In this document: one piece after another, positions 4,546 through 28,344 of the stretch
How the letters are laid out: the number at the start of each line of letters is the position of its first letter
How positions within the stretch are numbered: the first letter of the stretch is position 1
Source: Mesodorylaimus sp. YZB2_4
Taxonomy: Eukaryota > Nematoda > Enoplea > Dorylaimida > Dorylaimidae
Reading direction: 5' to 3'
Length of the DNA: 64,000 nucleotides
NCBI GenBank assembly: GCA_030248295.1
Contig: JASANH010000093.1
Coordinates: 1-64,000 of the forward strand
Notes under the pieces: generated by a model
The model's database searches: none
What the model was told of the DNA's origin: nothing
What the model saw: only the letters and a program-made list of their open reading frames with translations
Program-made: the position numbers and the translations under genes

Positions 4546-7500
4546 ATGTGGAGGATTATCCCAAATGAAACTTGGCCATTGACACATTTTACGCTTGTAC
4601 TCATTTTGGCTGCGGCAACTGCTGTTAGCAAGCCGCCAATTTTGGATCTTGCTTTCATTGTTGAAGATACGAGCGCGTTGCCTGACGTCGATGCTGTGTC
4701 AAAGGTAGATTTTTTCAGATGAGTTTTGGCACTGCTTGACCTCTGCCAACTGATAAAACACTGCTGACTTCATTTTGACTTTGTTTTCAGATCACACACT
4801 TTCTAGTTACCATAGCAAGTCAGTTTCGACTTGACCAAGGTGCGACGCGAATCGCTTGCCAGCTATATAATGATGAAGTAATGACCATATTCAATTTTAA
4901 TCGATACTTGGAGACGCCAGATGTGGTTTCGGCCATTCTCAGACAGCCCTTTTCCAGGAGGAATTCTACGCCTTCTATCGGCCTGTATGTAAATACTTAC
5001 TTTTCTGAAGCCCATATATGTAAGCAATCAGCATTGCGCTGATTTATTTGTGCTGGACTGAAGGCACTTAGAAAGTCGCTGCTCCTTGTACATACTGCGC
5101 CTATCCACCTTCCTGTGCCCAGTTAGAGACTTAAATCTGACTAAATATCCACATCATAGCTCGATTTTTGCAATCACTCATTTTTTGAGCTTCTATTGAC
5201 CTTTCGTCTCTGTATATGGATTAGCTCCATCCTGCTGCTGCACCAGATCTTAAGGAACCCTAATTCTACTGCCATTTCTGCATACTGTGCGCCTACATAT
5301 CTCTTGTTTACTCAGTCCCTGAAATGTATCAGCAATAGCCTTATTTATAGCCCTCTACAATACTGTTTGCTATCACCAAACTACCTCACATTCCATCTTC
5401 GCGAACTTGCATTGTGAAGAAGGGTGTGGTCGCAAAATTTTTTATTCCTGCATTTTAGCGCATTGATTCGAGCTTGGAATGATTTATTACTGGCAGATAA
5501 TGGAAAGCGGTCTTGTGCATCCACTATCATTATTATAGTCTCATATTCGAGGTATTACTGAAGAACAAAAATAAATTTAAAATCTTCCTGTACTTATGAC
5601 AAAATCTTTTCTGTTCCAGCCCATCTGACTTTCAAGGCACCCAGCAGTCTTTCTATCCTTATGATGCGATTTCGGCTGCGAAGCGACTGCGAAGTGCAGG
5701 CGCCCTTGTCATCGCAGTAGGCATCGGCTCTCGAAGAGATCCTGCGACTCTGTCGATCATTGCTGGGGGGAATGCAAATTACTACGACTACAGCGATTAT
5801 TTAAGTTTAGATGAAACAACAGCGCGAAACATCGCAAATCGGTGTGCGAACTATGTTCCTAGTCCCGGTAGGTAGATAAAAAAGAACCATGGAACTAACT
5901 GTCAGAACTGTCAGTACTTTATCGCAGGATTTTACCCATGTGACATGCAACGAATCGTTGACGATGTTGTGTTCGTCGTTGACGCGTCGACTCATATGCC
6001 TTCAAGCTATACGCAGGCTGTAAGTTATTTTAGCATGTAAATGTGCGTACTAAATCCTATTTGTGTCAATGTATACTAGCAAAGTCATAAAGTCGTGTAT
6101 AAACCGCGCGTAATTTCACTGTTTGTTCAGGTAATCGTCTTTATAAACAAGTTCCTACAACCGTACCGATTTGGCCGAAGTGGAGTACAAGCGTCTCTCG
6201 TCCCTTTCAGCAGGTCAGCAGAAGTGTCCATTCGACTCAAAGATACGAGCACATTGTCATCGTTCATGCAGAAAGTTCAAACCATTCTTGCACGCCAGCC
6301 ATACAGTGGTGACAGGGACATCTACAAGTAAGGTAACTAGCAAGGTTCCAAAAACCCAGTGAAAACACAGTAGCAACCGCTTTAAATAGTGGACTCGACG
6401 CGGTTTACTATCACGCCTTGGTCGAGTCTGCTGGTTATCGCCCTCAGGCTACGCACACTGTATTCATCTTCAGCACAGATGGGTAACCATGAATAAGTTT
6501 TTCGACTACAGCTGCAAAACTCCAAAAAATCTTTTATTCATTCACAGGTTTTCAGGCAATGACCCTGTATCACTAGCAAACGCCATACGGAAAGATAAAG
6601 ATGCATCAATATATCTGGTTACTCTAATGTCGTTTCCATACTGGACAGAAGCACTTGGAATTGCAGGCGATGTAAATCATATCATTGACATCAGTAGTAG
6701 CCCAGTGGCCCTATTGGAAAACTATCTTCCTTCGCAAGCATGGACGTATGTGTGCAATGGTAAGACAATTTCTGCAAAAAACCGAAACAATCAAGATTCA
6801 TTCAATTCAATATATTTTCAGATTCAAGCCAACAAACAACAACAACTTCTAGTATCCCCACAACGACCACAAGCGCACCTAACACCACAACAAGCACCTA
6901 TAGCACACCTACTACAACAACCAGCACTGCCAGCACAACAACTGGTACACCCACCACTACAACCAGCACTTCTAGCTCAACAACCGCACCTACTACAACA
7001 ACCAGAACACCCACTACAACAACCAGCACTTCCAGCACAACAACCACACCTACTGAAACATCCAGCACTTCTAGCTCATCTACCACACCTACTACAACAA
7101 TTGGCACACCTACTACCATAACTAGCACATCTAGCTCAACGACCACACCTACTACAACAACCAGCACACAAACCACTACTACCAGCACTTCTAGCTCAAC
7201 AACCACACCTACTACAACATCTAGCACACCCAAAACGACAACCAGCACTTCTAGCTCAATAACAACACCCACTACAGCATCCAGCACTTCTAGCTCATCA
7301 ACCGCACCTACCACAACAACCAGCACACCCACTACCACAACTGGCACTTCTAGCTCAACAACCGCACCCACTACAACAACCAGCGATTCTGGCACAACAA
7401 CCACACCTACTACAACAACCAGCACTCCCACTACCACAACTGGCACTTCTAGCTCAACAACCGCACCCACGACAACAACGAGCGATTCAAGCACAACAAC

Positions 7501-10500
7501 CACACCTACCACAACAACCAGCACACCGACTACCACAACTGGCACTTCCAGCACAACAACCACACCTACTGAAACATCCAGCACTTCTAGCTCATCTACC
7601 ACACCTACTACAACAACCAGCACTCCCACTACCACAACTGGCACTTCTAGCTCAACAACCGCACCCACGACAACAACGAGCGATTCAAGCACAACAACCA
7701 CACCTACTGAAACATCCAGCACTTCTAGCTCATCTACCACACCTACTACAACAACCAGCACTCCCACTACCACAACTGGCACTTCTAGCTCAACAACCGC
7801 ACCCACTACAACAACCAGCGATTATAGCACAACAACCACACCCACTACAACAACCAATGATTCTAGCACAACAACCACACCTACTACTACCACCAGCACT
7901 CCCACTACCACAACCAGCTCTTCAAGCTCAACAACCACACCTACTACAACAACCAGCACTTATAGTTCAACAACCACACCTACTACAACAACCAGCACTC
8001 CCACTACCACAACCAGCACCTCTGGCTCAACAACCACAATTACTACTGCAACCAGCACTTCTAGCTCAACAACCGCACCCACTACAACAACCAGCACTTC
8101 TAGTTCAACAACCACACCTACTACAACAACCAGCACTTCTAGTTCAACAACCAGCACTTCTAGCTCAACAACCGCACCCACTACAACAACCAGCACTTCT
8201 AGTTCAACAACCACACCTACTACAACAACCAGCACTTCTAGTTCAACAACCAGCTCTTCCAGCTCAACAACCACACCCACTACAACAACCAGCACTCCCA
8301 CTACCACAACCAGCACCTCTGGCTTAACAATCACACCTACTACTGCAACCAGCACTTCTAGCTCAACAACCACACCCACTACAACAACCAATGATTCTAG
8401 CACAACAACCACACCTACTGCAACAACCAGCACTCCCACTACCACAACTGGCACTTCTAGCTCAACAACCGCACCCACTACAACAACCAGCGATTATAGC
8501 ACAACAACCACACCTACTACAACCACCATCACTCCCACTACCACAACCAGCTCTTCCAGCTCAACAACCACACCTACTACAACAACCAGCACTCCCACTA
8601 CCACAACCAGCACCTCTGGGTCAACAACCACACCTACTACTGCAACCAGCACTTCTAGCTCAACAACCGCACCTACTACAACAACCAGCACTTCTAGCTC
8701 AACAACCACACCCACTACAACAACCAGCACTTCTAGTTCAACAACCACACCTACTACAACAACCAGCACTTCTAGTTCAACAACCAGCTCTTCCAGCTCA
8801 ACAACCACACCTACTACAACAACCAGCACTCCAACTACCACAACCAGCACCTCTGGCTCAACAACCACACCTACTACTGCAACCAGCACTTCTAGCTCAA
8901 CAACCGCACCCACCACAACAACCAGCGATTATAGCACAACAACCACACCTACTACAACCACCATCACTCCCACTACCACAACCAGCTCTTCCAGCTCAAC
9001 AACCACACCTACTACAACAACCAGCACACCCACTACCACAACGAGCACATATAGCTCAACAAACACACCTACCACTGCAACCAGCACTTCTAGCTCAACA
9101 ACCACACCAACCACAACAACTAGCTTTTCCAGCACAACAACTAGCACACCCACAACTACAACGTCAATTATTTTTCCTCTGTGTGTAGACATAATATTTA
9201 TTTTGGATGAATCTGAAGTATTTCTTTCTGGACAAGCTGGAAGTGGCGAATGGGCAAATTCATGGGACCACGTAAGATGATTGGTACATACTGTACTTCT
9301 TTCACCAAAAAACCATGGCTGTACGAGACCCTCTCCAGCTAAAGTTTTTTAGCTACAGTTTGGGTCATTGCGATTTTAGATGTTGCAAAACTTAGGGTCT
9401 CCTCAGGGTTCATGAGTATTGCATTTTTGTTTTAGTCAAGGAACTAGATAATGGCTCGCTCCGCTCGCAATTTTTCAGTTGCTCGCTTTGTTCGCGAAAG
9501 CTTTTATCAGTGGTGGCTCACATGTGCGCCACTGTGTCTTCACATTGCAGTGCATCTTCAAAAACGCTGACCAAAATCATACAGGAAAGCAAGCGCAGTA
9601 TCAAAAAGATGACTGTAAAAGTAACTCATAAACATATTGTTCATACTGGGGCCATTTATAAAGGATATCCACCCTACCCCAAGAATAGGGACTGGCGCAA
9701 AGTGGAGGTTCAGTTTTCAACAATTGGCTTGGGGGAAAATATCAACATTGATCAACAGTAAATATTACACATTGAATAACCAATATTTAAATACCTATAG
9801 TTTATTAATCGACTATCAGGTACAAACAATGATCCAAAGCCGCCTCGTCGTGTTTTAGGTGGCGTAGAGTGCAGAGTGCAGAGGAAACGGAAATAGGCAC
9901 CTAGACGCCACTTACCCTTATCGTTAGACTGGAACACAAAACGCGCAACTGTACGCATAACTGTACGTTGCAGGGTTAGAGCAATTGCTCGCCTAGACAC
10001 CCCCTCTAAACGTCCGCGCCCCCTAGCGGTAACTTTTATTTTACCGCTTATGTAGCGATCCGGTCAAAAATCGAATATAAGATTTATAGCAGTTTTGCAG
10101 AGCTGGAAATTCGCTACAAGTTTTGTGCAGGGATCAAAGGTGGTCGAAGGATCAAAAAATTTCGAGAAAATCAGCAAAAGCTGTTTTCCCACCTAGAGGA
10201 AATTATCGATAATCTAACGATAAGTGTCAGATGAAAAATTGAGAAAAAATTCTATTCACTCTTATAGAACTCAAAATTCTGCATGAGTTTCATGATGTGA
10301 GCGAGGGCGATCGTAACTGAAAAATTTTGAGAAAATCGACGAAAACCGTTTTCCTGTGTTAAAAAGAAGTCATGGACGGACGGACGTCTGGCTTAGAGTA
10401 TTATAGATTCTAAGATTCCTAAATTTGCTTCCGTATCTTCACTTTAGGCTGTTGCAGATGAAGTATATATACATTTATAATTATTTGTGTATTCATACAT

Positions 10501-11476
10501 ATGCAAGCATTCAGTATATAACTTTTCATATCTTCATATCTCATATCTTTCATATCTTCGGGACCTTCGTATCGCTACATTTCAAGCAACCTAGCGCACT
10601 GTATTGATCGCAATACACTAAATGTGTCCATACAGGAGCGAAGTTTGACTCTATGCACAAATTTTTTATTTATGATGCCAGCAATTACTATAATCGCTTG
10701 TGCTTACTGTTTTGAGTGCACATATATGCGCTTGAGCAAGAGTAAAATAGGTTCGCAAAACTAAGTACAGTATTTTAATGGTTGCTGTTTTAGGCAAAAG
10801 AATTCATCATTAATATAACCGATGAGTATACGATTGGATATGAATCCACTCGCTTCGCAATGGTTGGATTCGGCACAACAGCTCAGGTTCAAGTAGCTTT
10901 CAATGATTCAACAACGAGAAGCGAATTTATTCAGAAAGTCAATGATACCATACTAATCTCAACTGATCGAAATCTTGGTGCCCGAAATGCAACAGAGTAA
11001 GTTTTCGATGTGTTTATTTTGTATCCTTGTTACAGCTGCTTATTCTTTTCAGCGGCTTCACCATAGCCCACAACCATATTAAATCAAATCTTAGGTCTTA
11101 TAAAGTTCCGATTTACGCCATCTTCATTTCTGTTTATGCGTAAGTCGTGGGCTCCTTGTATTACGAGTCGTGTTAGTTAATGAGACTTTTTTCCAGTGAT
11201 GATGTAACAGGAGAAGACCGAGTCGTGGCAGCAGCTTCTACTCTTCAGGAACTCGGCGTCAGTTTGTTTATTGTGCCAATGATAGACTATCAATGGGACG
11301 ATGTATTCCGGTCTGAGGTCAATGCTATTCATAGAAACTTTGCTGATTCTGTAATTTATCAATTACGGAACTATGATGATTTGGAAACGAGTTCACTCGG
11401 AAATGATATTCATGCTAGAGCTGTCAAGGAATCCAATTGCACGCAGACATTTCCAGATCAGAGATTGATAGGATAA
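4546..11476 (+). CDS. Gene A: secreted triple vWA protein with a giant Thr/Ser-rich mucin-like region
   Basis: Twelve exons with consistent phases: 4546-4704, 4791-4984, 5459-5551, 5620-5867, 5928-6019, 6131-6327, 6390-6482, 6548-6759, 6822-9271, 10794-10996, 11053-11139 and 11197-11476, giving about 1,435 residues. A hydrophobic N-terminus (about residues 13-28) suggests secretion. vWA1 spans about 36-228 (FIVEDTS at the metal site), vWA2 about 235-425 (FVVDAST) and vWA3 about 1213-1435 (FILDESE). Between vWA2 and vWA3 lie about 780 residues of TTTS/TTTP-type repeats, probably heavily O-glycosylated. vWA domains usually mediate protein or matrix binding. All three metal sites lack the last Ser of the usual D-x-S-x-S motif. 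Exon 1 combines what are two exons in genes B-D. The third vWA domain is unique to this paralogue. Substrate and partners are unknown. Confidence 0.88.
6850..9162 (+). repeat. Coding tandem repeat of gene A (mucin-like)
   Basis: An imperfect tandem array with a main unit of about 39 bp encoding a 13-residue TTTSTSSSTTTPT-like block, mixed with shorter TTTSTPTTTTS blocks and occasional TSD and TSG variants. Thr is mostly ACA or ACT/ACC. The real frame (position 3n+2) has no internal ATG and stays open throughout. The long Val/Leu-rich frames on the other strand and the Pro/Gln/Leu frames on this strand are by-products of the repeat. Confidence 0.93.
9272..10793 (+). other. Long intron 9 of gene A
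   Basis: At 1,522 bp it is the longest intron of gene A. It separates the first strand of vWA3, which is still on the mucin exon, from the rest of the domain. The donor is GTAAGA at 9272 and the acceptor TTTTAG at 10793. It contains a short near-palindrome of CTCGCTCCGCTCGC type near 9455 and AT-rich repetitive DNA, but no exon that I can recognise. Confidence 0.6.
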
Positions 11477-11582
11477 GGCAGTATTAGTATGACTGTGCCT
11501 AGATCAGATGCTAGCTTTGTAGTTGTTGTAGTTGTAAATGCTTTCGCATGCGTGCTTGTAAGTGGTAAGTTGCTGTCGGTGA

Positions 11583-11588
11583 AATAAA
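11583..11588 (+). terminator. Poly(A) signal of gene A
   Basis: A canonical AATAAA hexamer lies about 107 bp after the stop codon of gene A, the expected distance for a short 3' UTR. Confidence 0.6.
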
Positions 11589-11892
11589 AGAACTGCCATG
11601 GTGATTTCGATCATTAGCAAATAGGTACATATTTGTCTGCCGCCAAAGTAATTTTGACGAACTTTGCTGATCATGCCCTTCTTGTAGTTACCAGCCTAGA
11701 GGTATCGTTGAATCACCCTGCATTCAACGAGACTGAATAAATACAGCCACCTTGAGTTTCCGCTGATAGTGATATTACAGGTTGAATGAGCGTCACTGTT
11801 GTTGCCACAGCAGATATCAGTGAGCTGATGGCCTAGAGCGTTTTGCGTTTGATCGTGAGCCGCGTTAGGAAAAGAAATTAATAGCAGGCTCA

Positions 11893-12075
11893 ACCCGGGT
11901 CTGTGGCCTAGCAGTTAATAAGGCGTCTGCCTCTCACGCTTGGTGTGCACTTACAAAAGAGGGTTCGACTCCCGCTTGGGTAAAAAATGATTGTCAAATA
12001 TGTGTCCCTTAGGCCTCGAGTGCGCTGTATAATGCTTGGCTAAAGATAAAGTATGACATGACCTGACATGACATG
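11893..12075 (+). mobile_element. tRNA-derived SINE, copy 1
   Basis: The head has pol III promoter-like boxes: an A-box-like TGGCCTAGCAGT and, about 50 bp on, a B-box GGGTTCGACTCCC. The conserved body contains GATTGTCAAATATGTGT and CCTCGAGTGCGC, and the tail ends in a TGACATGACATG repeat. The same layout recurs at 32548 and 40105 on this strand and near 42075 and 49898 on the other. The head does not fold as an intact tRNA, so I call it a SINE and not a tRNA gene. Confidence 0.85.
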
Positions 12076-12759
12076 TCATAACATCGGCCATTGGCAAAAT
12101 CAATCGATCGAGCAAAACGGTTCATCTCAATCAACTCAACCATGGGTCAAGGGCAGGTTTTAAAGCAAAGATGTGGACTTGAAATATCAACTGGCGAAGC
12201 TTGAAGGCGATGGATCGAAGGGCAAGCAGCAAAGATAGTCAAAAGCTATAGAAGCCGCGATGAAACTGACAGTCTGCTGATGCAGTTGTGGCATGGTGAT
12301 TTACTTCTGCTGTTTCGGTAAAGCTGATATTTGGTCACGGATCTGGCAAACTGAAAAAGTGAACTTAAAATCTCACAGTGACGAGTGAAGCTGCCCGGAT
12401 GAAGCTGGATAGTGACTTGTAGAAACAGTACTTAAAAAATCACGTTTTTGCTCCCGTGTTGACCTAGTCAAAATTGGCTTCTTCAATGCAACGAAAGCTT
12501 CTTATGCAACAAGAATCTAGAGCACGGCTTGAGATGGAATACGTTGAACAAAGGAAAAGGAAAGCCTATCGAGTTCCGTTATTAACAAGTCGGCTGATTC
12601 GTTTCCTCTTGTGTGAGCTGCTTATTCGTCGAACAAATGGAGTTTAAAAAATGCAAACGGATGTGAATCAAAGAGCTGTACGACAGGAACAGGGGATCAG
12701 CTCTGACGTGATTATGAGAGATAAGACTACAGTATCTATGATGTCCAAGATGCGATGGG

Positions 12760-12768
12760 TATATAAGG
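12760..12768 (+). promoter_or_regulatory. TATA box of gene B
   Basis: TATATAAGG lies 68 bp upstream of the chosen ATG (12828) and directly precedes the first exon of gene B. Gene C has a comparable TATA box. Confidence 0.55.
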
Positions 12769-12827
12769 CAACAAAGGGACCTAGTGCCTATTGTACTACT
12801 CCTGATTCTATCCAAGAACTCAATCAA

Positions 12828-15800
12828 ATGGCACCGTTGGGAGTTCTGCTTTTTTGCCTTCTGCTCGTTTATTCCGCTTGTGGCTACAAAAGTGAGTTGG
12901 AAGGGAAAAATCTGCATGCTCCCTCGCATGTGTGTGTATTGCATTATGCACAAGTGCAGTTGTGCTGTACTCTATGTATACCAGAAGCCAGCATGCCCAG
13001 AAGAATTTATCGTGCGTTAGAGACCTTTTTATGTTTAGGATGCCTCAGCAAGCTTGACGTGGTCCTGGTCGTGGAAGATTCAGCTTTCCTGCCGGACAAA
13101 ACGGCTGAGACCTATGTAAGCATCAATGACTTTCTTGCCTCCACAGTGAATCCACGTCATTTATTTTCAGATCAATGAGTTTCTAGTAGCCATAATTAAT
13201 CAACTGAACGTGGGGACGAATGGCGCTCAAGTGGCTTATCAACTTTATGGATATAATCACACTAGTACTACCATTTTCGACTTGAACACGTTCTCTGAGA
13301 CGACTGATTGTACGGCGGCCGTTTTGAGAAATTCATTTACCCGTGACTCGAGTGATCCAGCGTCAATTCACCAGTGAGTCAAGCTTGGGCAAAACGGCGA
13401 TGTTCACAGCCAGAATGTTTCTTCTAATGAACTTCCTTTACAGGGGCCTTAGCTACACCTGGAATACAATCCTGGCAGCGGGCAAAGGCGAACGCTCTTG
13501 CTATCCAGCCATCGTCATTTTAGTTTCCTACTCCAGGTACAGTGCCTTCCGATATTTTTTGATCGAAAGTGACTGCTAGTTAGACCTGCAAATCAGAAAA
13601 TGAGCTCATCTGTCAGTTTGTATGCGATATGCAGCCAAAAATTGCACAACCTGCATTCTGAGGTTTCTTTTCAGTTACCCGGGCCCTAACGAAAACGGCA
13701 TGAGAAATAGTGGTGTCGAAGATTTATCCTGGGCTCGAAAATTCCGCAACGCTGGAGCCCTTGTGCTTGCAGCTGGCGTTGGACCCAACAGAGACGCTGA
13801 TCACTTAATCCAATTAGCTGAAGATCCTGATAATTATTTTGATTTTGCTTCATTTTCCGACCTGACACGAGACGCTGCTGTTGACGTCGTGGACCAATTT
13901 TGCAATTATCAACGCATAACAGGCCAGTTTTAGGTTTTATATTTATTTTCTTCTAAAGCCCTTGATGTTCTGGTGAACAGTTTTGATTGCGAGATACCCT
14001 GCGCGGTTGTGCTATCCGTACTTCTAAAACTTTTCAGCAACCTTTGTAAGCTCTTTGCATTTTTAGAGTTTTACCCATGCGAAATGCAGACAATCACTGC
14101 CGACGTGGTCTTCGTGGTGGACGTATCGCGTAACTTCAACAGCACATACGCCAAGGCTGTGAGTGACTTCAGTACCTTTTGAGATCCTCAGCGCCCCCGC
14201 ACTTTGTCGATTTTCCCATCATTTTTCTCCCAACTATATTCCTTGGGAAAAGTCTTTACAAAATATTGTAAAATTTCTGGTTACAAGTATCTAAGCCCAC
14301 TTTCATGGCGCTGTGCCGCATGAATAAACCTTGGCATGCGTTTTTGCGTGAAGTAGCTCTTGCCAAAATCTCTGTGAGTCAAAGTTTTTTGCAAGTCACC
14401 TCGCTGCTTTGGCCAGAATTCTTTGTGTTGACTCGCTGTGAAACCTAAGAGATGGGACGAGACGCGGGTGTGGGAACACATCTTGTTTGGCGGCATGGAT
14501 GAAATGTTCCCTCGAGAGAAACATCTTGCATTAGCTCTGCCTTCATTTGGCGCTGAGCAACTAGCAACGACAAAGACCAGTTTTTGCATTTATTTCTCCC
14601 TCAAGGTTACCTCGTTCATCACCAACTTCTTAAGTCCCTATACGTTTGGCAGTCGCGGGGTCCAAGCAGCATTGGTCACATACCACAAGGTGGCAGATAT
14701 CGCCATCTCCTTCAAAGATGCCAAACACCTTGACGATTTCGTTCGCCAGGCTGAAGATATCTTAAGCGATGCCCCTTATGGCACTGAAAGATATGTCTTC
14801 AAGTAAGGGCTCTTTAGTTTCTTTCAAAACTCTATAGCCGTCTGAATGCTTCGTTGCTCGCACCCACATACAGTAACTGCACTATCATCCAACTCTATTT
14901 TCCAGCGCTCTAAGCCAAATCTTTTACTACGTCCTGACGAATGACGCCGGATATCGCCCTTCTGCTTTGCACCAGGTTTATATCTTCACCGCCGACTGGT
15001 AAGTTCAGTAAGCAGCTTGCGCTAGAGATTAGCTTTTCACCGAATACTTCATAGCTTCAATGGCCCTGATCCAGTTCCATTGGCTCAAGCAATACGGAGC
15101 AATCAGGCCAGCATTCACGTCATTGCTTTGGCTCAAACAGTCAGTTTCTGGAAAGAATTTGTGGATGTGGCTGGAGATGCCAATCATTTTTATGAAATGT
15201 ACAGCGATCCAGACGTGGCGTTGCCTATCAATTTGCCGAAACAAGCTTGGCGCACCCTGTGCCCAAATGGTACTTGTAGTCTGTCGTAGATCATTCTGGA
15301 TGCGCTTTTCCACACTGAAGTAGCAGTCAGAAATAATAATAATAGGCGATCATTTGCTAGAGACAACGTTTTATTAAATCAGGACACTTAGAATGCCATT
15401 TGCTTCCCTTCCTGACGCTCACCCATCTTCATGAGGCAGCATGTGCTGTAGGTATGACGAAGGCAATATGTTTTATTAAATGATTTGCTGATATGAGCAT
15501 TGAAGTAATAAAAGTCACACATTTTTGGCACCTGTTTAGGTAGCGTAAAATGTTGGATACAGCAAACTTGTACAGTATAAATAACAGACCCACAGGAACG
15601 GGGCCGCTTCAACCCGACTCGTAATTGAAATCTTTAGGTCACAGAAGACGCTGCCTGCCTTTAGTTCATGAAAAAACCCATTCGTAGTGGTGTGTCAGGA
15701 AGATGTCTTCAAAAAAAAATGGAGCGAGACGATATGTATGTCTTCGACAAACGTGTGAACTCGACAGCAGAGATTTTTCAGGTTGTTATCGACTCGTTTG

Positions 15801-16569
15801 TTTTAAATCTTATTTACAGTATGTGCTCTGCTCGGCAAAAACCTTTAGAAGCTTACAGATTACTTTGGCTCTAGATAACAAATGCACTACAACGACTACG
15901 CCAACAACCTCAACCTCAACGACCACGCCCACAACCTCAACCTCAACGACCACGCCCACAACCTCAAACTCAACGACCACGCCCACAACCTCAGCCTCAA
16001 CCTCAACGACCACAGCCTCAACCTCAACGACCACGCTCACAGCCTCAACCACGACCACGCCCACAGCCTCAACCTCAACGACCACGCCCACAGCCTCAAC
16101 CACGACCACGCCCACAGCCTCAACCTCAACGACCACGCCCACAGCCTCAACCTCAACGACCACGCCCACAACCTCAAACTCAACGACCACGCCCACAACC
16201 TCAAACTCAACGACCACGCCCACAACCTCAGCCTCAACCTCAACGACCACAGCCTCAACCTCAACGACCACGCCCACAGCCTCAACCACGACCGCGACCA
16301 CAGCCTCAACCTCAACGACCACGCCCACAGCCTCAACCTCAACGACCACGCCCACAACCTCAGCCTCAACCTCAACGACCACAGCCTCAACCTCAACGAC
16401 CACGCTCACAGCCTCAACCACGACCACGCCCACAGCCTCAACCTCAACGACCACGCCCACAACCTCAGCCTCAACGACCACGCCCACAGTCTCAGCCCCA
16501 ACGAACACGCCCACAACCTCAGCCTCAACGACTACGACCTCACCGTCAATACCCGTCAAGCGCAACTGA
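12828..16569 (+). CDS. Gene B: secreted double vWA protein with a Thr/Ser-rich tail
   Basis: Exons: 12828-12891, 13039-13115, 13171-13373, 13444-13536, 13675-13922, 14067-14158, 14606-14802, 14906-14998, 15055-15269 and 15875-16569; about 658 residues. The start gives a clear signal peptide (MAPLGVLLFCLLLVYSACG). vWA1 opens with LVVEDSAF and vWA2 with FVVDVSRN, so both have a degenerate metal site. Each domain ends in a conserved Cys/Trp block (QAWRTLCP in the second). Exon 5 must end at 13922 to match the 248-nt exon of gene A; this implies a GC-AG intron, because a GT donor is lacking there and the frame otherwise stops. The last exon is a Thr/Ser/Pro/Ala tail of about 230 residues, joined in phase 1 as in gene A. 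If the donor at 15270 is not used, the protein ends at 15289 instead. Confidence 0.85.
15885..16555 (+). repeat. Coding tandem repeat of gene B tail
   Basis: An imperfect array of TSTTTPT/A-type units (about 21-27 bp) built from ACG, ACC, TCA and CCC codons. It gives the same sort of peptide as the gene A array but with different codons and unit length, so the two arrays do not look like copies of one another. Confidence 0.9.
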
Positions 16570-17439: not shown

Positions 17440-18740
17440 CAAGTAAATTGGTGAAAGACAACAGCACGGGTTCACTAAGCGTCGTGGTACAAATACGGCC
17501 TCGATCACAGCCAGTCAATTTATTCATGACCATCTAAATTCAAAGAAGTACAAACTTGTTGCGGGCGTTTTTCTGGTTTTAAAAAATGCTTTCGACCAAG
17601 TACCTCATGCTCTTCTTTTGAAGTCGCTCCAATGAGTCCACCGGATCCCCTGCAAGCTTATTTTTAGGGTCATTGATGGTCATTCGTCTGCTGATATCCC
17701 TGTCACCTCTGGAGTGCCACAAGGAAGTGTCCTCGGTCCAACTTTATTTGCCGCCTACATCAACGATCTGCTCGTAAAATTGGAAGCCTAATTCCCATGT
17801 GCACCTACGCATCGTCGACTATTGTAGACATACGCCGACGACTCGGCACTTTTTGTTCCCATCCAGAACTTGGATGAGTTGTTTACCGTTGTCCAGCCCA
17901 TGATTGATTTGATTTCGTCCTGGGTCACATCAGCTGGTCTCGATTTCAACATCTCAAAATCCCAGTCGATCCTATTTCGCAACGGCCATGGTACTTCCGT
18001 CCCATCCAGATTTGTTTATTTAATTTCTTCAGACACTGAATTTATTTGATGTGGTAAAAAACCTTGGTATTGTATTTTTTTGCGATATGAAATTCAGTGA
18101 GTACGTTTCTTCGATTGTTCGGAAAGCGATCAGTATGATTGCGGCTGTTAGACGCAGGCTGGGCAGGCACTTGCATCCAGCAGTCCTGGGATCTGCTTAC
18201 GATGCTTATGTGCGCACTGTGCTGGAATATGGTGTTGCCTGTTGGGATCCGATCTTGGAGAAAGATATCAGGAAACGCGCCTAGTTTTATGCTCTAAGAC
18301 TGTTTTTGAATTAGTTTACTATTTCTTACGAGGAGGGGCTTTGACGTGCTAGGTGGAGTTCATTACATGACAGGAGGAAGGGTCTAAACTGTGTCAGTTT
18401 TATCGCTTTTATCATGGTTTTCATGATTTTTATAACAGTCGATTTGTACGTATATCAGTTTCCCGTGCCAGCCGTCAGGCTTGTGAGGCATCACCTGAAT
18501 GCGCCTAGGGGCTTTTTTGATGCGTATAAGCAAATCTTCATTTTCTCGTGTATGCATATGTGGAATCAATCAATCAATTGGGAGACTGCATGGTCCTCAT
18601 ATTCGCACTTCGACATTGTATTTTTGCTTCTTCTTTGTGATTTGTCTCGCGAGTTTGTACCCGAATATTTCTTAGACCCTGTTGTGAGTGCGCCTTCAGT
18701 GTTTGTCTAACGAATAAAACATGATTATAATGATGATGAT
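17440..18740 (+). mobile_element. Decayed non-LTR retrotransposon (LINE) with reverse transcriptase fragments
   Basis: Conceptual translation in three shifting frames gives reverse transcriptase landmarks in order: QHGFTKRRGT, then a Phe-Asp palm block (KNAFDQVPHALL), [10 protein letters not shown] at 17711-17739 and YADD at 17831-17842. These are followed by the typical LINE thumb and C-terminal blocks (LGIVFFCDMKFS, YGVACWDP, RWSSLHDRR). Several frameshifts and stops mean it is dead. The 3' end runs into an ATGATGATG-type simple repeat near 18720-18740. The order and motifs fit Jockey/CR1-type elements. The 5' part and any first ORF are missing. Confidence 0.88.
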
Positions 18741-18924
18741 ATTCGAGTTAGATAATAATGGGTTCAACAAGAAGAAGGTGATGTCGAGAAAAATAAAACG
18801 GGTTTCTTGGGCGAAAGTGATAGGCGGAATGTATATGCGACCCACAGATGAGACCTGGACCCCGGCTAGATGGCGGATTCTGATTTCGCTCAGTCTCGAA
18901 ATTCTTCTGCGCCTTTCTTACAAG

Positions 18925-19227: not shown

Positions 19228-20751
19228 CGGCGGAGGCAGAGTAAGCTGTCTTTCATGGTCGTGTTGGCATTGATGTGGACTTGGTGCGAAGACACGGCAA
19301 TGAAGCAGAATCGATCAGTTTTGGGCACTGCATGATCGATCTCCTTCGACCTTACTTTCCATTGCAGTAATATACGCACGTTTTACGAAGCTTTTTTGAC
19401 ATCCAGTTTTTCACAAGTTTGATGTGTGCAGAATTTTACTTTTGGCTTTGACAGTTACGCGGGAAGAGATATTCGCTTTTGACATGTGACATGCGTTTTG
19501 ACGTGGCGACGGTGTCGACGTATCCTACCAATACCTATCCATATTTTGGACTGCAATGCCCAGGCTCATGCAGGCTTGCTCCGCGCTTCACCCGAGTTCA
19601 CGCAGCCTATTTCCACCAAAGTTTCACATCGCCCACTCATACCCCGCCAAAAGCCTGACGAAAGTTGTCGACTAATTCAACATTTCTATGGCACCACATG
19701 TGGCTGTCACTTCACCCCAGTAACCTCATCTCCAGTTCTTATCTCTGACACTGCGTATAAACTGTATCTCGAATCGTTCAGATTCCATCACTCCACGCCC
19801 CGAACGTCGCCTGCACAAGGTCGATCCGGAATTAGCGCGTGGTCTTTTTGCAATCCATCTTCTCATGTTTTGACAATATGATCTGACTGACATGCATGGA
19901 ATGCCGTAATACTCCGCTAGATAGTGAAAGTAGGTCGAGGTCAGGTTTAATTTTATTTGCACTTGCGCTTCTTGAGTGGCAAAGCATTTTATAAATCCAT
20001 TCTTGCATTTCCTTTTTCTACCTCCTTACCCTACCTATCACATGCCTGGTCGCCTGGGCTCCGTTCAGTCCCTTTTGTAACGCGTGAGCAGAAAAGTTTG
20101 ATTTTGATAAACAAGTGATATATTATCTTGAGGCCACCTACACACGGTGGTTTTTCATAGCTGCTTCAGCAAAGGCTAGCAACTTACGACAAAGCTAGGT
20201 CAGCTACTGATAAGACCAGCTTTCGTCGTAATCTTCTCTTGCGTCATGTCGACAGGACGGCCGGGATTGCTGAATCTGTGTATTCAACAAAAATTTGTCA
20301 TTTGTTCCTGCCCTAGTTTCCATAATCGGAATGAGCTGAGATTTAAGAAGTGGAGAAAGTATTGAAAACTGGCCCGGTACTATGAATTTGACCTGCTTAC
20401 GTCAAAGCTGAGTTTGCGTTTTATCAAAAATCTGGTCGCGTCCCTTTCTCTTGGCTCACCAAACAAGGTGGCATGATGATGTTAGGTGAAAGCGAACTTG
20501 CCACATTTTTGACTGCACCTTTCGCTTGACCTTTATCAATCCAGCATCAAACGGGGCAAAAAGAAGGGACTAATACAAAACTGATAATGGTATCCTTTTG
20601 GCACCCAGCACCATCCTGGGAATGATCATAAAATGAGCTTTAGTCGAGTGCACATGTCGGTGATAAGGAAGCAGTCAAGGATGGATGATGTATGATATGG
20701 TGTGCACCACTCTACGCAAACACTATAAGTCGTGTGGGTTTTATGAACGAG
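19228..20751. other. Intergenic spacer
   Basis: No exon or repeat family that I can place. The open frames here are short, lack splice context and are not similar to the neighbouring vWA exons. Confidence 0.4.
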
Positions 20752-20759
20752 TATAAAAA
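20752..20759 (+). promoter_or_regulatory. TATA box of gene C
   Basis: TATAAAAA lies 133 bp upstream of the ATG at 20885, leaving room for a short 5' UTR. Confidence 0.6.
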
Positions 20760-20884
20760 TGGGTGTGCATAGTTTTTGACCCAGTTCTAACATCTCGACT
20801 CGGACGTGGTGGCTTGTCCTGTAGTGGTTGGAGCACGCATAAACTTTGGCGTGTCATTCTATTATTGCTATCAAAGCAAGAACA

Positions 20885-23102
20885 ATGAAGACTGTGGCAC
20901 TAGTGTGCTTGATGCTGGTTGCTTATGCCAGTGCATTCCAGTGTAAGTCATAGTGACTCCTCTGACCATAAGAATGTAGCACCTTTAGAAACGAGGGCCT
21001 TGGAGTGACTGCATCTAGATACCAAGTCATTGGGGAAATGCATTTCGCACTGCTTTGCAGCATGTGACCATCAATTGGATCTCGCTCTGGTGGTGGAAGA
21101 TTCAACCTTTCTCACAGATGTCATAGCAGAGACAAACGTAAGACATGGGCTGGGTCTAGTAACTTCAAGCATACAGCCCTCATATTTCAGGTGAAAGCTT
21201 TCTTATCGACCATAGTGGACGAATTTCATCTTGGCGATGCATACGCACACGTTGCCTATCAACTGTACGGTGTCGACAGCAAGACCGTCTTCAACCTGAA
21301 CACCTTCTCAGAAACTAATGACGCCAAGTCGGCCATCGTGAGACAAGCATTCTCCCGCGGGGCCAGCACTCCACCAGTGATCGCCGAGTATGCAAAACAT
21401 CGATCATTGACTAATCTGATAATAATTACATTTTCAATTTTTTCAGTGCTCTGAACTACACATGGACGGATATATTGTCGGTGGAAAACGGAGAACGCTC
21501 GTGCTACCCCACAGTTGTCGTCTTGCTGTCGTATTCACAGTAAGTCTCATGTCCAGACGTAGGCTTGCAGGCTTACATCCTTTTTTGAAACAGCAAAAGT
21601 TTTTGCATTTTTTATAAACACAGAGGGCACACGCTTACAGAATTTTCTCAGTCACGAGAGAGAAGCAGCATGCAATCTTCTCCTGCATTCGAGCCTACTA
21701 TACTCGATATCCACACGATAAAGATGCATTTTAGCGAAAATGGTCCCAATCAATTTGGAGCCTCTCAAACCGCTGATCAAGGTCGCGCATTGTATTGGGC
21801 GCGCGAACTGCGCCATTCGGGCGCCTTATTGATCACGGTTGGTGTTGGCAAGAACAGGGATGCAGGGTTCCTAATCGAACTGGCCGGTGACAGAAGCAAC
21901 TATTACGACTTTGAAGATTTCTCTGATTTGACAACGGATAATGGCGATGAAATAGCCGACCAGATAGCTAAGCAAGCCTGCAATTATAAACCTGTGCTGG
22001 GTTAGTACTTTATAAATAATTTTTCAAAACAGTCTTGAAAAGCTTCTCTTCATATATTCAGGCTTTTTGCCTTGCGAAGTGGAGTATGTCAAGGCCGATG
22101 TTGTATTCGTTGTTGACATATCGAAGAATTTTGATGCAACTCTCGCCGGAGCTGTAAGCTATATTTGAATATCCCGCCTTTGCCATCGTACTCATTTCCC
22201 CTTTTTAGGTCAGAGATTTCATAATTAATTTCTTGCAACCATACACGTTCGGTTCGAAGGGCGTGCAAGCTGCGTTGGTCACCTACAGCGAAGTGGGCTA
22301 CGTGGCTATCTCCCTGAATGATAGTAAAGTTAGAACCGAAAGCGATTTCATTAACTTAGTGGAACAATATTTGAACGTCACGGCCCCGTCAGAGCCGAGA
22401 AATATATATGAGTAAGCTTGGTTCGACTTTTTGTGAAGGAGACTGTTTTTCCCATGTAACAGCCTGGTTTTTTGGCTTTAGCGCTCTTGACCGTGTAGTT
22501 AACCACGTGTTTGTTGAGTCGGTGGGATATCGACCTGATGTTCCCCACGAGGTCTTCATCTTCACTGCCGATTGGTAAGTAGGACTGTGTTCAAGTTTGA
22601 CCTCATCGAAATATTGGAGGTTTAACGAAGGATCGTTTCAGCTTTAGTGGCTCAGATCCCGTCGACTTCGCCAACCAGATTCGATCGGATAAGCGAGCTG
22701 AAATAGTTGTCGTGCAATTATCGAACAGATTCAACTTCTGGAAAGAAATTGTGGATGTTGCCGCTGTTTCGAGCAACATTTGGGAAGCTCAAGCCGACCC
22801 AGCAGTCATCTTGCCCTCCTATTTGTACAAGCAAGCTTGGCGAACGCTGTGCCCTGCTGGTAAGATTTTTGGTTATTTGGAAAAAGAAAAATTTCTGAGC
22901 ATGGCATCAGCCCTGATATTGGTGATGTGCAGTAAAGTACATCAAAGTCCTCGTTCGTTATTGACGCGTGCTGTCCTTTCTAGGCTATATCCCGCCTCCG
23001 ACTACCACTGCTGGCCCAACAACCGAGGCTGCGACCACAACAGCCGAAATACCTGCCACTACAACTGCTCCTCCTCCCCCCGCTCGCCCACTTCGCTACT
23101 AA
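20885..23102 (+). CDS. Gene C: secreted double vWA protein with a short Thr/Pro tail
   Basis: Exons: 20885-20942, 21061-21137, 21191-21387, 21447-21539, 21735-22000, 22062-22153, 22209-22411, 22482-22574, 22642-22859 and 22984-23102; about 471 residues. The first exon is a signal peptide (MKTVALVCLMLVAYASAF). The two vWA domains open with LVVEDSTF and FVVDISKN. Conserved blocks shared with A, B and D include GERSCYP and SGALLITVGVG in domain 1, and YTFGSKGVQAALVTY and QAWRTLCP across domain 2. The tail is only 39 residues, rich in Thr, Ala and Pro. All exon phases equal those of B and D. Of the four paralogues this is the simplest form: two vWA domains and little else. Confidence 0.92.
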
Positions 23103-23242
23103 CAGTCAAACAGTATTGGATAACCCAAATCACCTCCAGCTATAGAACATAAAGCTGTCTTAGAGTGAACATAGCCATTGGCTGGAGTGATTAGCTAACT
23201 GTGTAGAGGTCCACACTTTTTAGTCCAGCTGTGACAAAGTGG

Positions 23243-23248
23243 AATAAA
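23243..23248 (+). terminator. Poly(A) signal of gene C
   Basis: AATAAA lies 141 bp after the stop codon of gene C. Confidence 0.6.
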
Positions 23249-23417
23249 ATGTACCCGTCGTGAGATGTCAATGGATGTAATACAGACTGAAGACCCATCT
23301 TATTAGTATGGGCTGTGGGCACTCAAGCACTCGCACTCCGCTGGGGCACGGATTTGAGTGGGTGGCTGCAAAAGTCTGCTTGCACTCATAGCGTGGAAGG
23401 AGCTGCAAACGCTTCCT

Positions 23418-23545
23418 GTTCCTATTTTACCACATCACCAAACGCTCTCGAGGGTGAAGGAGCACTGCCCAAAAACTGATTTATGGGGCCGCGGGTCGAA
23501 CGCTCGCCCGTGACTGCGCATCTAACGCCCAACGCATACTGCAGG
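23418..23545 (-). mobile_element. tRNA-derived SINE, diverged reverse copy
   Basis: On the minus strand it has a degraded B-box (GAGCGTTCGACCCGCGG) followed by the family body with the CCTCGAGAG block. It is closest to the copy at 52478-52618, with which it shares a TTTTACCACATCAC block. The A-box end is eroded. Confidence 0.65.
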
Positions 23546-25080
23546 GCCGAGTTTCACCGAGGCAATTCCAAGTGTTACAAGCGCCACAAGTGACTATTTT
23601 ACAAGTATTAGCGTTTGATCACAAACAAACTCACAAGTTAGAAATGCAAGCGTGAGAGATGCCTGGGTACAAGGGGCCTTTGGCCATTAAGTAAAAACAC
23701 GTTGCAAGTATAGAGAACTACGGGCAATACGGTACAAGCCTGACGAACGAGCGTTTCACCACGACTTTTCGGGCCCTTGTAAAAAAGCGGGCTTGTAGAG
23801 AGCGACCTGTGAAAGATGGAGGCAGAACTTGTAAATGAGCCCAAATCCAGAAGGCTGCAGCGCATTGATTTTTTGGAAGGTGAGGGGGAAAGGGGGTTTG
23901 ATAAGTTTTTGATTTCCTGCCATCATCAGTGACCTGCCAAAAGACGGAAAGAAAACGAATCCGTTGCAATAACATAGGGGAGATAGATAAAAACCAGCAA
24001 GGCAACAAGTCCTACCAGTCTCGTTCTGACTCGTAGAAAATTCAATTGTAAGTTTATGAAACCGAACTGCTCGCAGTCGTGCCAGTGCTCCCGCAAAAAG
24101 TCTTGTAACTCTAGGAGCTGCCAATGGATTATTCATTTTGGTGAAGCGCAAGTCGCTTGTGGACTCGTAACTTGTGAGCTTGTAATGTGTGAATTTTGAC
24201 TTGTTTTGCTTGTAACTTGGTGAAACCTGGCCCAGGCAGCGGTTGTTGGCTCGGCAGCACATCACTCTCATCGTCTGCCAGGACATGTGCACATGAGCAT
24301 AGTACTTTACGTCTTGCATCACACCTCCTTTGAGTCTCCCTGTGGCATTTTTGGACTCCAGAAGGTATGCCTTGCCAGAATACGGAAATGACCTTTCGCC
24401 TGCTGAATTTCATGCTGTTCTAACCAACTAACGATAAGTAGGCGGTCGGTGTAAAAGTTAAAGCATGCAAAATTTTAGCAGAAGCCCAACTCGTCCAGAC
24501 AAATTTTCCCTTCGAGCTGTGATCAGCGCACCGGGTGAGGAATAAGCAGAGCTTATATGAAAGGCATACTGTAGCAATCTATCCCAAAGGGAAAACAAAA
24601 TGTGGGCGGTGGTTTTTAAAGGAGCAAAAAGCAGTTAGAGGTGGAGTCAAGGTCTGGGAAATGGCCATAAAGTGGCATATCGCCATAACAATACTTGTCT
24701 CCTCCGTCTTCTCCCAAGAGCGCGCACAACAGAAGCAGTAGTCGACGCCCGAATGTAAACGAAACCCCGATTCGGCATGACCTTCTTATCACTTCCCAAA
24801 CTCCTTCATTTCTGTCACGCCATCATTTCGTCTGTGCCGGCTTAACGATTTACTGCTGCGTAAACTTTGACGAGCCTAGTAGCGATGAGCTTAACCCGGA
24901 TACGGGCAATGACAAGAATGGGAGTGGATAGAATGCATGATGAGCAGACAGATTCAACATTGCTCGCACTGTGCTCGCTGGCCAACATTCCTTATTACTT
25001 GAACCAAGCTCGGAAAAGAAAGTTTTTCAGTTGCTTTGTTGTTATTCTAGCTTATGCTTATTTAGTTGATTTTTTACACA
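23546..25080. other. Intergenic spacer between genes C and D
   Basis: I see no exon. Around 24160-24230 an ACTTGTGAGCTTGTAA-like motif recurs in loosely repeated form. The minus-strand open frames at 23756-24413 overlap one another in different frames and have no domain features. Confidence 0.4.
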
Positions 25081-28000
25081 ATGAAAAGTTGGAACGTTTG
25101 TATGCTTGTCATAGTGATAGTGACTTCTTCTTATGATTGTCTATTGGCTAGCAAAAGTGAGTGGGCGAAAAAATGTGGTGGTTTCTGATAGTGTTGTCAA
25201 ACTGGATGAAAGAATCACTGCTTTTAAACCCTTTGTGATTCTTGGGTTCAAATCTCACCAGGCGCAACACTTTTTCGACAATTTTGAATATTTCATGCTG
25301 TTTGATTATCTCGCTTTTCAGTATGTCCAAATAAGGTTGACATTGCCCTGGTGGTAGAGGATACGCATTTCATACCCGACGAGGACTCTGAACTTGCTGT
25401 AAGAAAGCAACTTCACCTGCCAGAATCAGATTATAATCACTTGGCAATTTGCAGCTCAAAGACTTTTTATTCGCCCTTACCGATCACTTTAATGTTGCTG
25501 TGGATCAAACCCACGTGGCATTGCAGTTCTACAACGACCAAAGCACGACTATGTTCGACCTAAATCGGTACAGTGAGACGACGGATATCGTGGCAGCCAT
25601 TCTTCTTTCCACCTTCACACGCAAGTTGTCTGATGCACCGATCGATAAGTAAGCAGTCTTACACTGACCTGCCCACACGATGCCTGAGATCACTGCCAGA
25701 TTGGGTTTACCAGGGCATTGGGCTACACGTGGGATCGTATACTGACGGTGGAGCATGGAGAGCGGTCGTGCTATCCCACCGTAGTGGTACTGGTGTCCTA
25801 TTCCAGGTATGATAGTGCATTGTGTCCCTGTGTGAGCTGTGCAATGCTATGTCCATATGGGTGCCCCTGCATGCATGCAGCCATCACTGCAATGCAGTGA
25901 TTGCTGTATGCATACAGCACAGGGGCAGGCTGTAAACTTCAGGATATAATAATCTGTACTTGGTGAGAGCAAAGGAGAGACTGGACTAGAATGTCATAGC
26001 AGGCCACGTTACAAGCAAAAATCTTGCCTTCTAGCAACCAAGGATCGAACGGCAAGAAAGAAAATTTTGCCATAGTTCGTCAACTGCAAAATTCAGGTGC
26101 CCTCGTGCTGACTGTGGGAGTTGGACCGAACAGGGACCCTGAACAACTGGTTATGCTGGCTGGCGGCTTGGATAATTATTTCGATTTCAGTGATTTCTCA
26201 GACTTGCTGAACGTCACTAGAGCTGGTCTTATGGCTAAGCAGATATGCAATTACGCGCCTGTTAAAAGTAAGTTGCTGTTTTGACGTTTCCTACGTCACC
26301 AGTTATTAGTCCTGTTTCAACAGGTGAATAATACGTGGCTGCCCATCCTGGTTTTAGACATGACCGATTTGTGGGCAGAGAGACTTGTTATCTTGCATGT
26401 GTGATACAAGAATATTAGGCAGGAATTAGAGTGCTTACTGAGTAGTTGGGCCACTCCTACATTTTTCACACATACATTACTGCGCAGCGCACTCTCCACT
26501 TGCGCACACACAACTATCGTACCAATCACACTAGCGCATCCAAACGCCAGAGGGCTCTCCCGTTACACATGATTATGTGAAAAAAGTTTTAGCAAGTGAG
26601 AAATACTTGGAGCGGTGCCAGCAAATCAGACAGTGCTCTAGCCAATCAGACAGAAGAATGACAGGCACGCAATGAACGACCCATTTTAGGTTTCTACCCG
26701 TGCGAAATGGAGACAGTGGCTGCTGATGTCGTCTTTGTTGTTGACGTATCCAGGAACATGAATGCTCAGCTGACGCAGTCGGTAAGTCCATTTTGCACTT
26801 GGCAACTAGCCAAGCTTCAAGCATGTGTCTGTCCGCTTGGAAGCAAGCGGCTGGGGTCGCACGGTTTAGTCGACCAGGAAAGTCAATCTGTGAAACCGTT
26901 CACTGGGCTTCACGCCACGCAATGGTTAACTTACTGTACGTATACCGTGAAGACCCCAAACGGAGACAGGAGCCGAACGAGCAGTGGCAGCTGTCGAACC
27001 TTGGGTTCAGATGACACCCGCCATCGCCCGAGGAAAGTGGTGTTCTGTTCCAAGATCCCCTAGAAGTGCTCAAGTGAGACCTAGGAAGGGAATCTGTCGT
27101 GTCGAGTGATCCCCTCACAGGACTGTAATCCTATGGCTTAACTGTTGAATCCAGCCAGTCAGAGTCCAAAAATTCAGATGGGTGGCACATTCTTACTTTA
27201 TAGTTGTGCGAGCTATGCTGGCCAGGTTTTCTTGTTAGCCAGTTTAGCGATGCCATTGCTTTTCTCGTAGGCACTTGGTTTCATGTCAAATCTTCTCAGA
27301 CCATTCCACTTCGGCAGCAAGGGAATCCAGGCCGCCATGGTTGCTTATGCAAGGGACGCCGACGTTGCAATTTCGTTTTCGGACGCAAAAAATCATGAAG
27401 CCTTTATGGAAAAGGTGGGAAATTTGCTTAATAATGGTCCGTATGGCACAGAAAGATACATATCAAAGTAAGTGAGGTGGCTTCTGGAGTATCCAAAGTG
27501 GCACTGTCTGTTCTTAGCGCCCTCGAAGCAGTCCATTACCATGTCCTGACCGAGAAAGCTGGCTACAGACCTGGAGTACCACATTCGGTCTTTGTGATCA
27601 GTGGCGATTGGTAAGTTATAACAAGTGAGGAATACTACGGCGTGGAGGCGGAGTTCACGAAACAAGCTAGCCAATCAGAATAGCGGAGGCGGAATCCTTT
27701 TGTTTATAATTTTTTCAGCTTCAACGGTCCTGATGCTTCTCAGTTAGCAAATAAAATCAGGACGGGAAAGTTTGCCGATATCCACGTGATCACGCTTGGG
27801 CGAAGGGTTAATTTCTGGAAGGAAAATTTAGATATAGCTGGTGATGTGGAGCACCTGCATATCGTGGAGAAAAGTCCAGAAGCAATACTACCCACTTTTA
27901 TGGCCCAACAAGCATGGCGTGGTCTGTGCTTCTGGAAGAATGGCAGTGATGCCGAGAGTAAGCAGAGGGCTCGTTCTTCAAGCAAGCAGACAGCGATCCA

Positions 28001-28344
28001 TTGTTTCAGGTGATGGCGCCACAAGTACAACTCGAGCCACTTCGACTGGGAATCCAGCAACACCACCCCCATGCTCAGCTCCCCCGCCAGTAACCACGCA
28101 CAGAATTGTGTCATCCCCAGCATCAGCCGCACCCGCCACTGTTAGCTCACACCCATCCACAGATTACTCAAAGATTAGCCAAGGGCCGAGCTCCACCAAT
28201 GTGCAATCCCAGAGTGCTTCTGGTTCGGGTCAGCCGTCTACACCCCACTGGACAACCCTTCAGTTCAGAACCACTGGGGTCGATCAGGATAACTCCACTG
28301 GGTCATCGATCACTGTACACTCAAATGACACTACAGGAATTTAG
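25081..28344 (+). CDS. Gene D: secreted double vWA protein with a Ser/Thr/Pro tail
   Basis: Exons: 25081-25156, 25322-25398, 25455-25648, 25714-25806, 26035-26267, 26690-26781, 27271-27467, 27518-27610, 27719-27957 and 28010-28344; about 542 residues. The ATG at 25081 gives a signal peptide (MKSWNVCMLVIVIVTSS). Domain 1 opens LVVEDTHF and domain 2 FVVDVSRN. The family blocks GERSCYPTVVVLVSYS, GALVLTVGVGPNRD and YGTERY are present. The tail is 111 residues, Ser/Thr/Pro-rich but not a regular repeat. Exon sizes 77, 194, 93, 92, 197 and 93 equal those of its neighbours, so D arose by tandem duplication. Exon 5 is the shortest of the four (233 versus 248-266 nt). Confidence 0.92.
25862..25927 (+). 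repeat. Imperfect hairpin in gene D intron 4
   Basis: TGCCCCTG at the left end pairs with CAGGGGCA at the right. Between them CATGCATGCAGC pairs loosely with GCTGTATGCATA, and ATCACTGCA pairs with TGCAGTGAT at the tip. It lies wholly within the intron at 25807-26034. It could be a hairpin insertion or a small foldback element. Confidence 0.6.

Follow-up and report, generated by a model that had tools for sequence, protein, structure and literature searches.

Four neighbouring double-vWA genes with tails of very different length in a nematode: candidate matrix or surface-coat glycoproteins

Gene models and surroundings of the array

The window analysed here, a 64-kb stretch (C202:1-64000) of a 145.1-Mb assembly of 1067 contigs, contains four neighbouring genes, A to D, which we rebuilt exon by exon as open spliced models from the window sequence and its open reading frames. 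The final models, all on the forward strand, span positions 4546-11476 (A), 12828-16569 (B), 20885-23102 (C) and 25081-28344 (D); each reads in one frame to a single terminal stop, giving proteins of 1435, 658, 471 and 538 residues, respectively. The four genes share a layout of a signal peptide, two von Willebrand type A (vWA) domains and one tail exon, and A continues into a third vWA domain. A sequence-only reading had placed an array of four double-vWA genes here, and its limits, the start codon of A at 4546 and the stop codon of D at 28344, proved exact. Splicing was deduced from the sequence alone: candidate exons were sought with phase and GT/AG borders fixed, and the lengths of 77, 92 and 93 nt were not imposed.

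Gene A (exon lengths 159-194-93-248-92-197-93-212-2450-203-87-280 nt) opens with an exon at 4546-4704 that encodes a hydrophobic N terminus, read as the signal peptide, and the start of vWA1. The rest of vWA1 lies within 4791-5867 (exons 2-4: 4791-4984, 5459-5551, 5620-5867) and vWA2 within 5928-6759 (exons 5-8: 5928-6019, 6131-6327, 6390-6482, 6548-6759). The tail exon at 6822-9271 encodes 781 residues with a 99/198-bp in-frame tandem repeat and then, in frame, the start of vWA3, which is completed, together with the stop codon, by exons 10-12 within 10794-11476 (10794-10996, 11053-11139, 11197-11476). Gene B (64-77-203-93-248-92-197-93-215-695 nt) begins with a signal-peptide exon at 12828-12891, followed by vWA1 within 13039-13922 (exons 2-5: 13039-13115, 13171-13373, 13444-13536, 13675-13922), vWA2 within 14067-15269 (exons 6-9: 14067-14158, 14606-14802, 14906-14998, 15055-15269) and a tail exon at 15875-16569 with a 27-bp in-frame repeat. 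The signal-peptide exon of gene C (58-77-197-93-266-92-203-93-218-119 nt) lies at 20885-20942, its vWA1 within 21061-22000 (exons 2-5: 21061-21137, 21191-21387, 21447-21539, 21735-22000), its vWA2 within 22062-22859 (exons 6-9: 22062-22153, 22209-22411, 22482-22574, 22642-22859) and its Thr/Pro/Ala-rich tail at 22984-23102. For gene D (76-77-194-93-233-92-197-93-227-335 nt), the corresponding parts are the signal-peptide exon at 25081-25156, vWA1 within 25322-26267 (exons 2-5: 25322-25398, 25455-25648, 25714-25806, 26035-26267), vWA2 within 26690-27945 (exons 6-9: 26690-26781, 27271-27467, 27518-27610, 27719-27945) and the tail exon at 28010-28344.

The vWA exons of A-D follow one plan (77; 194-203; 93; 233-266; 92; 197-203; 93; 212-227 nt), with identical phases at all homologous junctions, although this phase agreement is partly built in because the exon search constrained phase and GT/AG. 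The proposal of a shared plan thus stands for the homologous junctions and falls for the first vWA exon of A, which has no separate 77-nt exon, its 159-nt exon combining signal peptide and start of vWA1. The opening cysteine is also missing in gene A.

Among the 38 introns of A-D, 37 are GT-AG and one is GC-AG; the latter follows vWA1 of B, with its donor at 13923. The equivalent donor is GT in A, C and D, leaving B alone with GC, and it is also GT in the two relatives E and F described below, where the search accepted GT only. Failure of the GC donor would bring translation to a stop three residues on, inside the retained intron, and B may be impaired in view of this one splice site. A further GC donor, at 27943 in D, was dropped in favour of a phase-preserving GT three bases downstream.

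Directly upstream of gene A, the window holds a beta/gamma-crystallin domain (3039-3374, forward strand; PF00030, E 2.4e-7) and a probable secreted protein (1916-2569, forward strand) with no Pfam match at E up to 0.01, whose HEFNH motif we take to be reminiscent of metallopeptidases. Reverse-transcriptase-like pieces lie between B and C (17447-18284, forward strand), one of the two scanned matching RVT_1 at E 7.5e-5, under the curated cut-off. Downstream are an imperfect tandem repeat of 33/75/108 bp (34939-35165), an ordinary AP-2-type gene with an alpha-adaptin C-terminal domain (43409-43846, reverse strand; E 3.6e-18), and two reverse-strand open reading frames similar by eye (54677-55117 and 60045-60500) that may be a tandem duplicate, the former matching Frag1/DRAM weakly, under the cut-off. 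Neither Rfam nor tRNA scanning of the 64-kb window gave a hit. A crude comparison of the four 600-bp regions upstream of A-D found no shared 8-mer, and the two shared 7-mers (mean 0.84 in 200 shuffles) were equalled by 34.5% of the shuffles; a shared promoter was dropped as a candidate on these grounds.

Domain architecture and tail composition

The Pfam scan covered C and D whole, A and B minus most or all of the tail, and the vWA3 piece of A. In these parts, only VWA models reached strong E-values: each body has two VWA (PF00092) matches (E 8.1e-35 to 2.9e-39; 121-135.5 bits against a cut-off of 23.8) and the vWA3 of A has one (E 3.7e-15; 57 bits against the same cut-off). The best sequence matches in the PDB were collagen VI alpha-3 (E 1e-64 with the vWA1 profile and 2.3e-58 with the vWA2 profile, both values being sums across many repeats), mussel PTMP1 (PDB 4cn8; 1.1e-25 and 8.4e-16, respectively), integrin I domains and vWF A domains.

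Signal peptides were judged by hydrophobicity only. Outside them, the only hydrophobic 19-residue windows fall at residues 1206-1231 of A, which are taken to be the first strand of vWA3. The hydrophobicity scan of A-D detected neither another membrane segment nor a hydrophobic C-terminal end, which makes secretion of the products most likely. The bodies of B, C and D have six cysteines in common: the two closing pairs, a single one in an RSC motif of vWA1 and a single one past strand four of vWA2; an extra cysteine is found in vWA1 of B. Since the RSC cysteine is present in all six genes A-F and its candidate vWA2 partner is confined to B, C and D, a disulfide between domains or chains through this residue is possible.

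The tails comprise 781 residues in A (before its third vWA), 230 in B, 38 in C and 110 in D, within one or two residues of the lengths first proposed. They had all been described as mucin-like, which applies to A (Thr 57%, Ser 26%, Pro 8%; together 91%) and B (Thr 55%, Ser 21%, Pro 9%; together 85%) but not clearly to C (Thr 29%, Ser 0%, Pro 26%; together 55%) or D (Thr 18%, Ser 20%, Pro 12%; together 50%). A long Thr/Ser/Pro-rich secreted region is therefore present in A and B, and the tails of C and D are not clearly mucins. Glycine makes up 1.7% of the A tail and 0% of the B tail.

The tails of A and B reach near-equal compositions with different DNA repeats and codons, A repeating 99 or 198 bp with codons ACA/ACC/ACT/AGC and B 27 bp with codons ACC/TCA/ACG. 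The eight strongest repeat lags of each tail are all multiples of 3. Between copies, single-base codon differences that leave the Thr/Ser/Pro/Ala set amount to 22 of 242 in A (lag 33 codons), where 35-37% would be expected under equal or transition-weighted mutation, and to 5 of 44 in B (lag 9 codons), where 27-30% would be expected. The P values for both tails are overstated, as repeat copies are not independent, so the effect size carries more weight; that for B is modest (0.003-0.011). An open frame by itself says little for the B tail because all three forward frames are open there. In A, the tail frame runs directly into vWA3, and in each of A-D the last vWA2 exon ends at the same phase-1 junction.

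Relatives in the genome, loss of the MIDAS motif and descent

A genome search with the C body (E up to 0.01) returned at least 35 matches, with at least 26 on the window's own contig, all within A-D, at least five on C227, at least three on C309 and at least one on C228. Gene E, on C227, and gene F, on C309, have exons for the same vWA1-vWA2 plan, the first exon of F being 83 nt and the seventh 90 nt. Outside the pair, joins in E and F were read from open frames. Past the pair, E has a short Ser/Thr-rich frame, vWA3 exons like those of A and then vWA4; F has a 170-residue Thr-rich stretch in frame with a further vWA, and also vWA3 exons similar to those of A. A signal-peptide exon ending in phase 1 is present in E; one was sought in F and not found. 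The tails of B, C and D occupy the position of the E/F linker, so these three genes end inside it.

Among 20 loci scanned, Thr/Ser/Pro-rich stretches of at least 30 residues occur in five (on C309, C30, C312, C3 and C151), and only in F was such a stretch seen in one frame with a vWA. On C151, the stretches lie on the strand opposite the vWA matches, and two vWA loci have same-strand stretches nearby (L021, C30:724000-733999, reverse strand, longest 188 residues; L035, C3:758000-767999, forward strand, longest 118 residues). The F locus (L018, C309:33500-43499, reverse strand) carries extra vWA exons before and after the pair and may hold two neighbouring genes. A separate family of vWA proteins with a membrane-like segment and a basic tail is found at L004, L006 and L008 (C5), L007 (C140) and L024 (C228), in one long frame at four of the five loci and in two frames at L006. 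The genome also yields 133 cuticle-collagen and 19 DB-domain matches, families that mark nematodes and identify the organism as one. A search for SL1 with up to one mismatch gave no match, which does not prove its absence. Fifteen COX1 matches on several contigs (C73, C273, C741, C47 and others) contain stops under the bacterial code and may be nuclear copies of mitochondrial DNA.

For the metal-dependent adhesion site (MIDAS; D-x-S-x-S, T and D), we aligned 21 domains: 13 family members (vWA1 and vWA2 of A-F and the vWA3 of A) and eight comparators (E vWA4, F vWA5, four other vWAs of the genome and the two PTMP1 domains), with the fourth column anchored on a threonine common to all comparators; E vWA3 and the remaining F vWAs lie outside this table. 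D-S-S-T-D is present in all eight comparators and in none of the 13 family domains; since the comparators were picked as ordinary-looking vWAs, the former count checks the alignment and does not estimate a genome-wide frequency. In vWA1, the pattern across A-F is E-[ST]-[FAI]-[SVA]-Y, the first Asp being replaced by Glu and the last by Tyr in all six genes. In vWA2, it is D-S-[NHDS]-R-[ATG], with Thr replaced by Arg in all six and the last Asp by Ala, Thr or Gly; the second Ser is lost in five of six, and D-x-S-x-S is kept by F alone. The vWA3 of A reads D-S-V-R-A, and the first motif of the sixth vWA of F is D-E-S-E-S.

A threonine stands two residues ahead of the Arg in vWA2 of B, D and F, and an Asp one residue past the lost Asp in five of six vWA2s, so that vWA2 may conceivably have a shifted local metal site. 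The loss of the second Ser in vWA2 (five of six) and the Glu and Tyr of vWA1 (six of six) are independent of any such reading. The uniformity of the replacements argues that the site has been kept for a different use rather than having plainly decayed. MIDAS-dependent adhesion by the vWA pair was rejected, and the pair would not be an ordinary metal-dependent adhesive head.

When the 21 domains were placed in a tree, all six vWA1s grouped together (100/100), as did the six vWA2s (97/98 at the drawn fork; 100/100 in a group test), and the vWA3 of A was a long branch adjoining the vWA2s. Most simply, the vWA pair and the MIDAS loss would predate the six-gene expansion. When the six bodies were joined, only the pairing of B with C was well supported (95/94). 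A clean single origin of the A-D cluster was not retained: of 200 bootstrap trees, only 36% kept the four genes together, and E or F may therefore fall inside the cluster.

Differences among A-D are concentrated at third codon positions (0.58-0.71, compared to 0.37-0.49 at first and 0.24-0.41 at second positions), and pS is 0.73-0.90 against a pN of 0.31-0.44 in both domains and all six pairs of A-D. The dS is infinite in 10 of 12 domain comparisons and 2.60 and 3.52 in the other two, on which grounds a recent duplication was dropped. With synonymous change near or beyond saturation and amino-acid change restrained, A-D are old protein-coding genes whose bodies are under long-standing purifying selection. 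Gene B is no outlier in constraint, including in vWA2 downstream of its GC donor.

A matrix or surface-coat reading and its alternatives

With roughly even odds (about 0.5), we read A-D as an old tandem array for secreted extracellular-matrix or surface-coat glycoproteins in which a metal-independent vWA dock carries a variable tail. The vWA pair would dock to a matrix partner, such as a cuticle collagen or proteoglycan, through a metal-independent surface, and the tail, presumably O-glycosylated in A and B, would project as a hydrated brush, with repeat number determining its length. The tails of A and B have grown by in-frame repeats with Thr/Ser/Pro/Ala retained. In A, the far-end vWA3 could turn the 781-residue tail into a tether linking a docking point at each end, and B, C and D would be single-ended. 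The sequence-only reading had suggested an adhesive, matrix or immune family. What survives of it is a conserved secreted vWA-pair body of common descent, with relatives on two other contigs and with tails that vary widely in length and glycosylation potential; an ordinary metal-dependent adhesive head does not, given the MIDAS loss in 13 of 13 family domains examined. An adhesive, matrix or immune role for A-D may still be suggested from these features.

Several known systems resemble parts of this design. Mussel byssal proximal thread matrix protein 1 (PTMP1) is likewise a matrix protein of two tandem vWAs, each of which the two family profiles match along most of its length, and A-D share this arrangement in proteins whose secretion is judged from a hydrophobic signal peptide. 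Unlike the A-D pairs, it keeps D-S-S-T-D in both domains, and it comes from another phylum. To our knowledge, PTMP1 has no mucin tail. The N-terminal array of collagen VI alpha-3, the best PDB sequence match, also consists of tandem vWAs, but no collagen helix was found in the parts of A-D scanned, and the tails of A and B are nearly free of glycine. An excerpt of PMC4754843 reports that PTMP1 binds collagen. According to a part of PMC3919171, most collagen VI vWAs have no MIDAS, and vWF A3 binds its ligand away from the MIDAS site, a precedent for vWA binding of this kind.

Among nematode proteins, L001 and L003 of this genome presumably resemble the matrilin-related matrix proteins, which are large and transmembrane and have EGF repeats; L001, of this type, has an intact MIDAS, unlike the A-D pairs. 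Nematode matrix proteins related to vWA-bearing matrilins are also comparable to A-D (PMC11304992, in part). Some nematode C-type lectins, including a secreted one, carry a vWA according to an excerpt of PMC9085898; Pfam detected no C-type lectin domain in C and D, scanned whole, in the A and B bodies or in the vWA3 of A. Against the matrix or coat reading stand the MIDAS kept by PTMP1, which is the nearest matrix analogue with two vWAs, the weakly mucin-like tails of C and D and the absence of a common upstream motif.

The first alternative, which we consider unlikely, is that A-D are coat mucins, secreted or shed, with which a parasitic nematode acts at the host interface, the vWA pair binding host matrix or immune ligands and the tail acting as a glycan decoy, a role proposed for the Toxocara TES-120 mucins. 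These mucins (MUC-1 to MUC-5) are a small secreted nematode family in which Ser/Thr-rich cores of differing make-up adjoin a conserved module (PMC3611597, in part), a pattern that A-D resemble, and in a root-knot nematode fewer endospores and red cells attached to the cuticle once a mucin-like gene was knocked down (PMC6638177, in part). However, the TES-120 module is ShKT, not vWA, and Pfam detected no ShKT domain in full-length C and D, in the A and B bodies or in A vWA3; the whole TES-120 proteins, at 176-316 residues, are shorter than the tail of A, and the A-D bodies are under constraint and show no hint of rapid change. Less probable again is a function as mucins of the reproductive tract, eggshell or plug: C. 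elegans has the mucin copulatory plug protein PLG-1 (PMC11304992, in part), but no sequence feature of A-D points to sex-limited expression.

It is improbable that B, C and D are decaying remnants, shortened copies of a longer multi-vWA protein that lost the MIDAS-bearing part, with B partly impaired. The further vWAs past the linker of E and F, of which the two aligned (E vWA4 and F vWA5) are MIDAS-intact, and the GC donor found only in B would fit such a history, but the four frames are all open, the residues that replace the MIDAS are themselves conserved across six genes, and B is constrained like A, C and D, also past its GC donor. A gene-model artefact, in which tails of other transcripts or non-coding repeats merely adjoin the vWA exons, is very improbable: the splicing is indeed modelled and the B tail lies 605 bases past a weak-looking donor (GTACTT), but the phase-1 junction is identical in A-D, the A tail continues straight into vWA3, and the tails of A and B retain Thr/Ser/Pro/Ala above chance mutation.

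Returning to the matrix or coat reading, a narrower version may tentatively be put forward, in which A-D would be nematode-specific modular coat proteins combining a MIDAS-free vWA-pair dock with a glycan brush set gene by gene (38-781 residues), and gain or loss of the far-end vWA would switch between a single-ended brush and a two-ended cross-linker. All of the ingredients are known; their combination, a MIDAS-free vWA pair with a freely varying tail in a tandem nematode family, appears to be new. Among the open-access matches listed, no title or abstract opening describes a nematode family of double-vWA mucins. In C. elegans, the surface coat is believed to contain mucins as a major component, with the individual mucins yet to be identified (PMC11304992, in part). 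The A-D family supplies candidate surface-coat genes in a nematode, with a testable design, and its four adjacent genes, which share one body but differ in tail length, offer a natural series for the role of tail length in a matrix glycoprotein.
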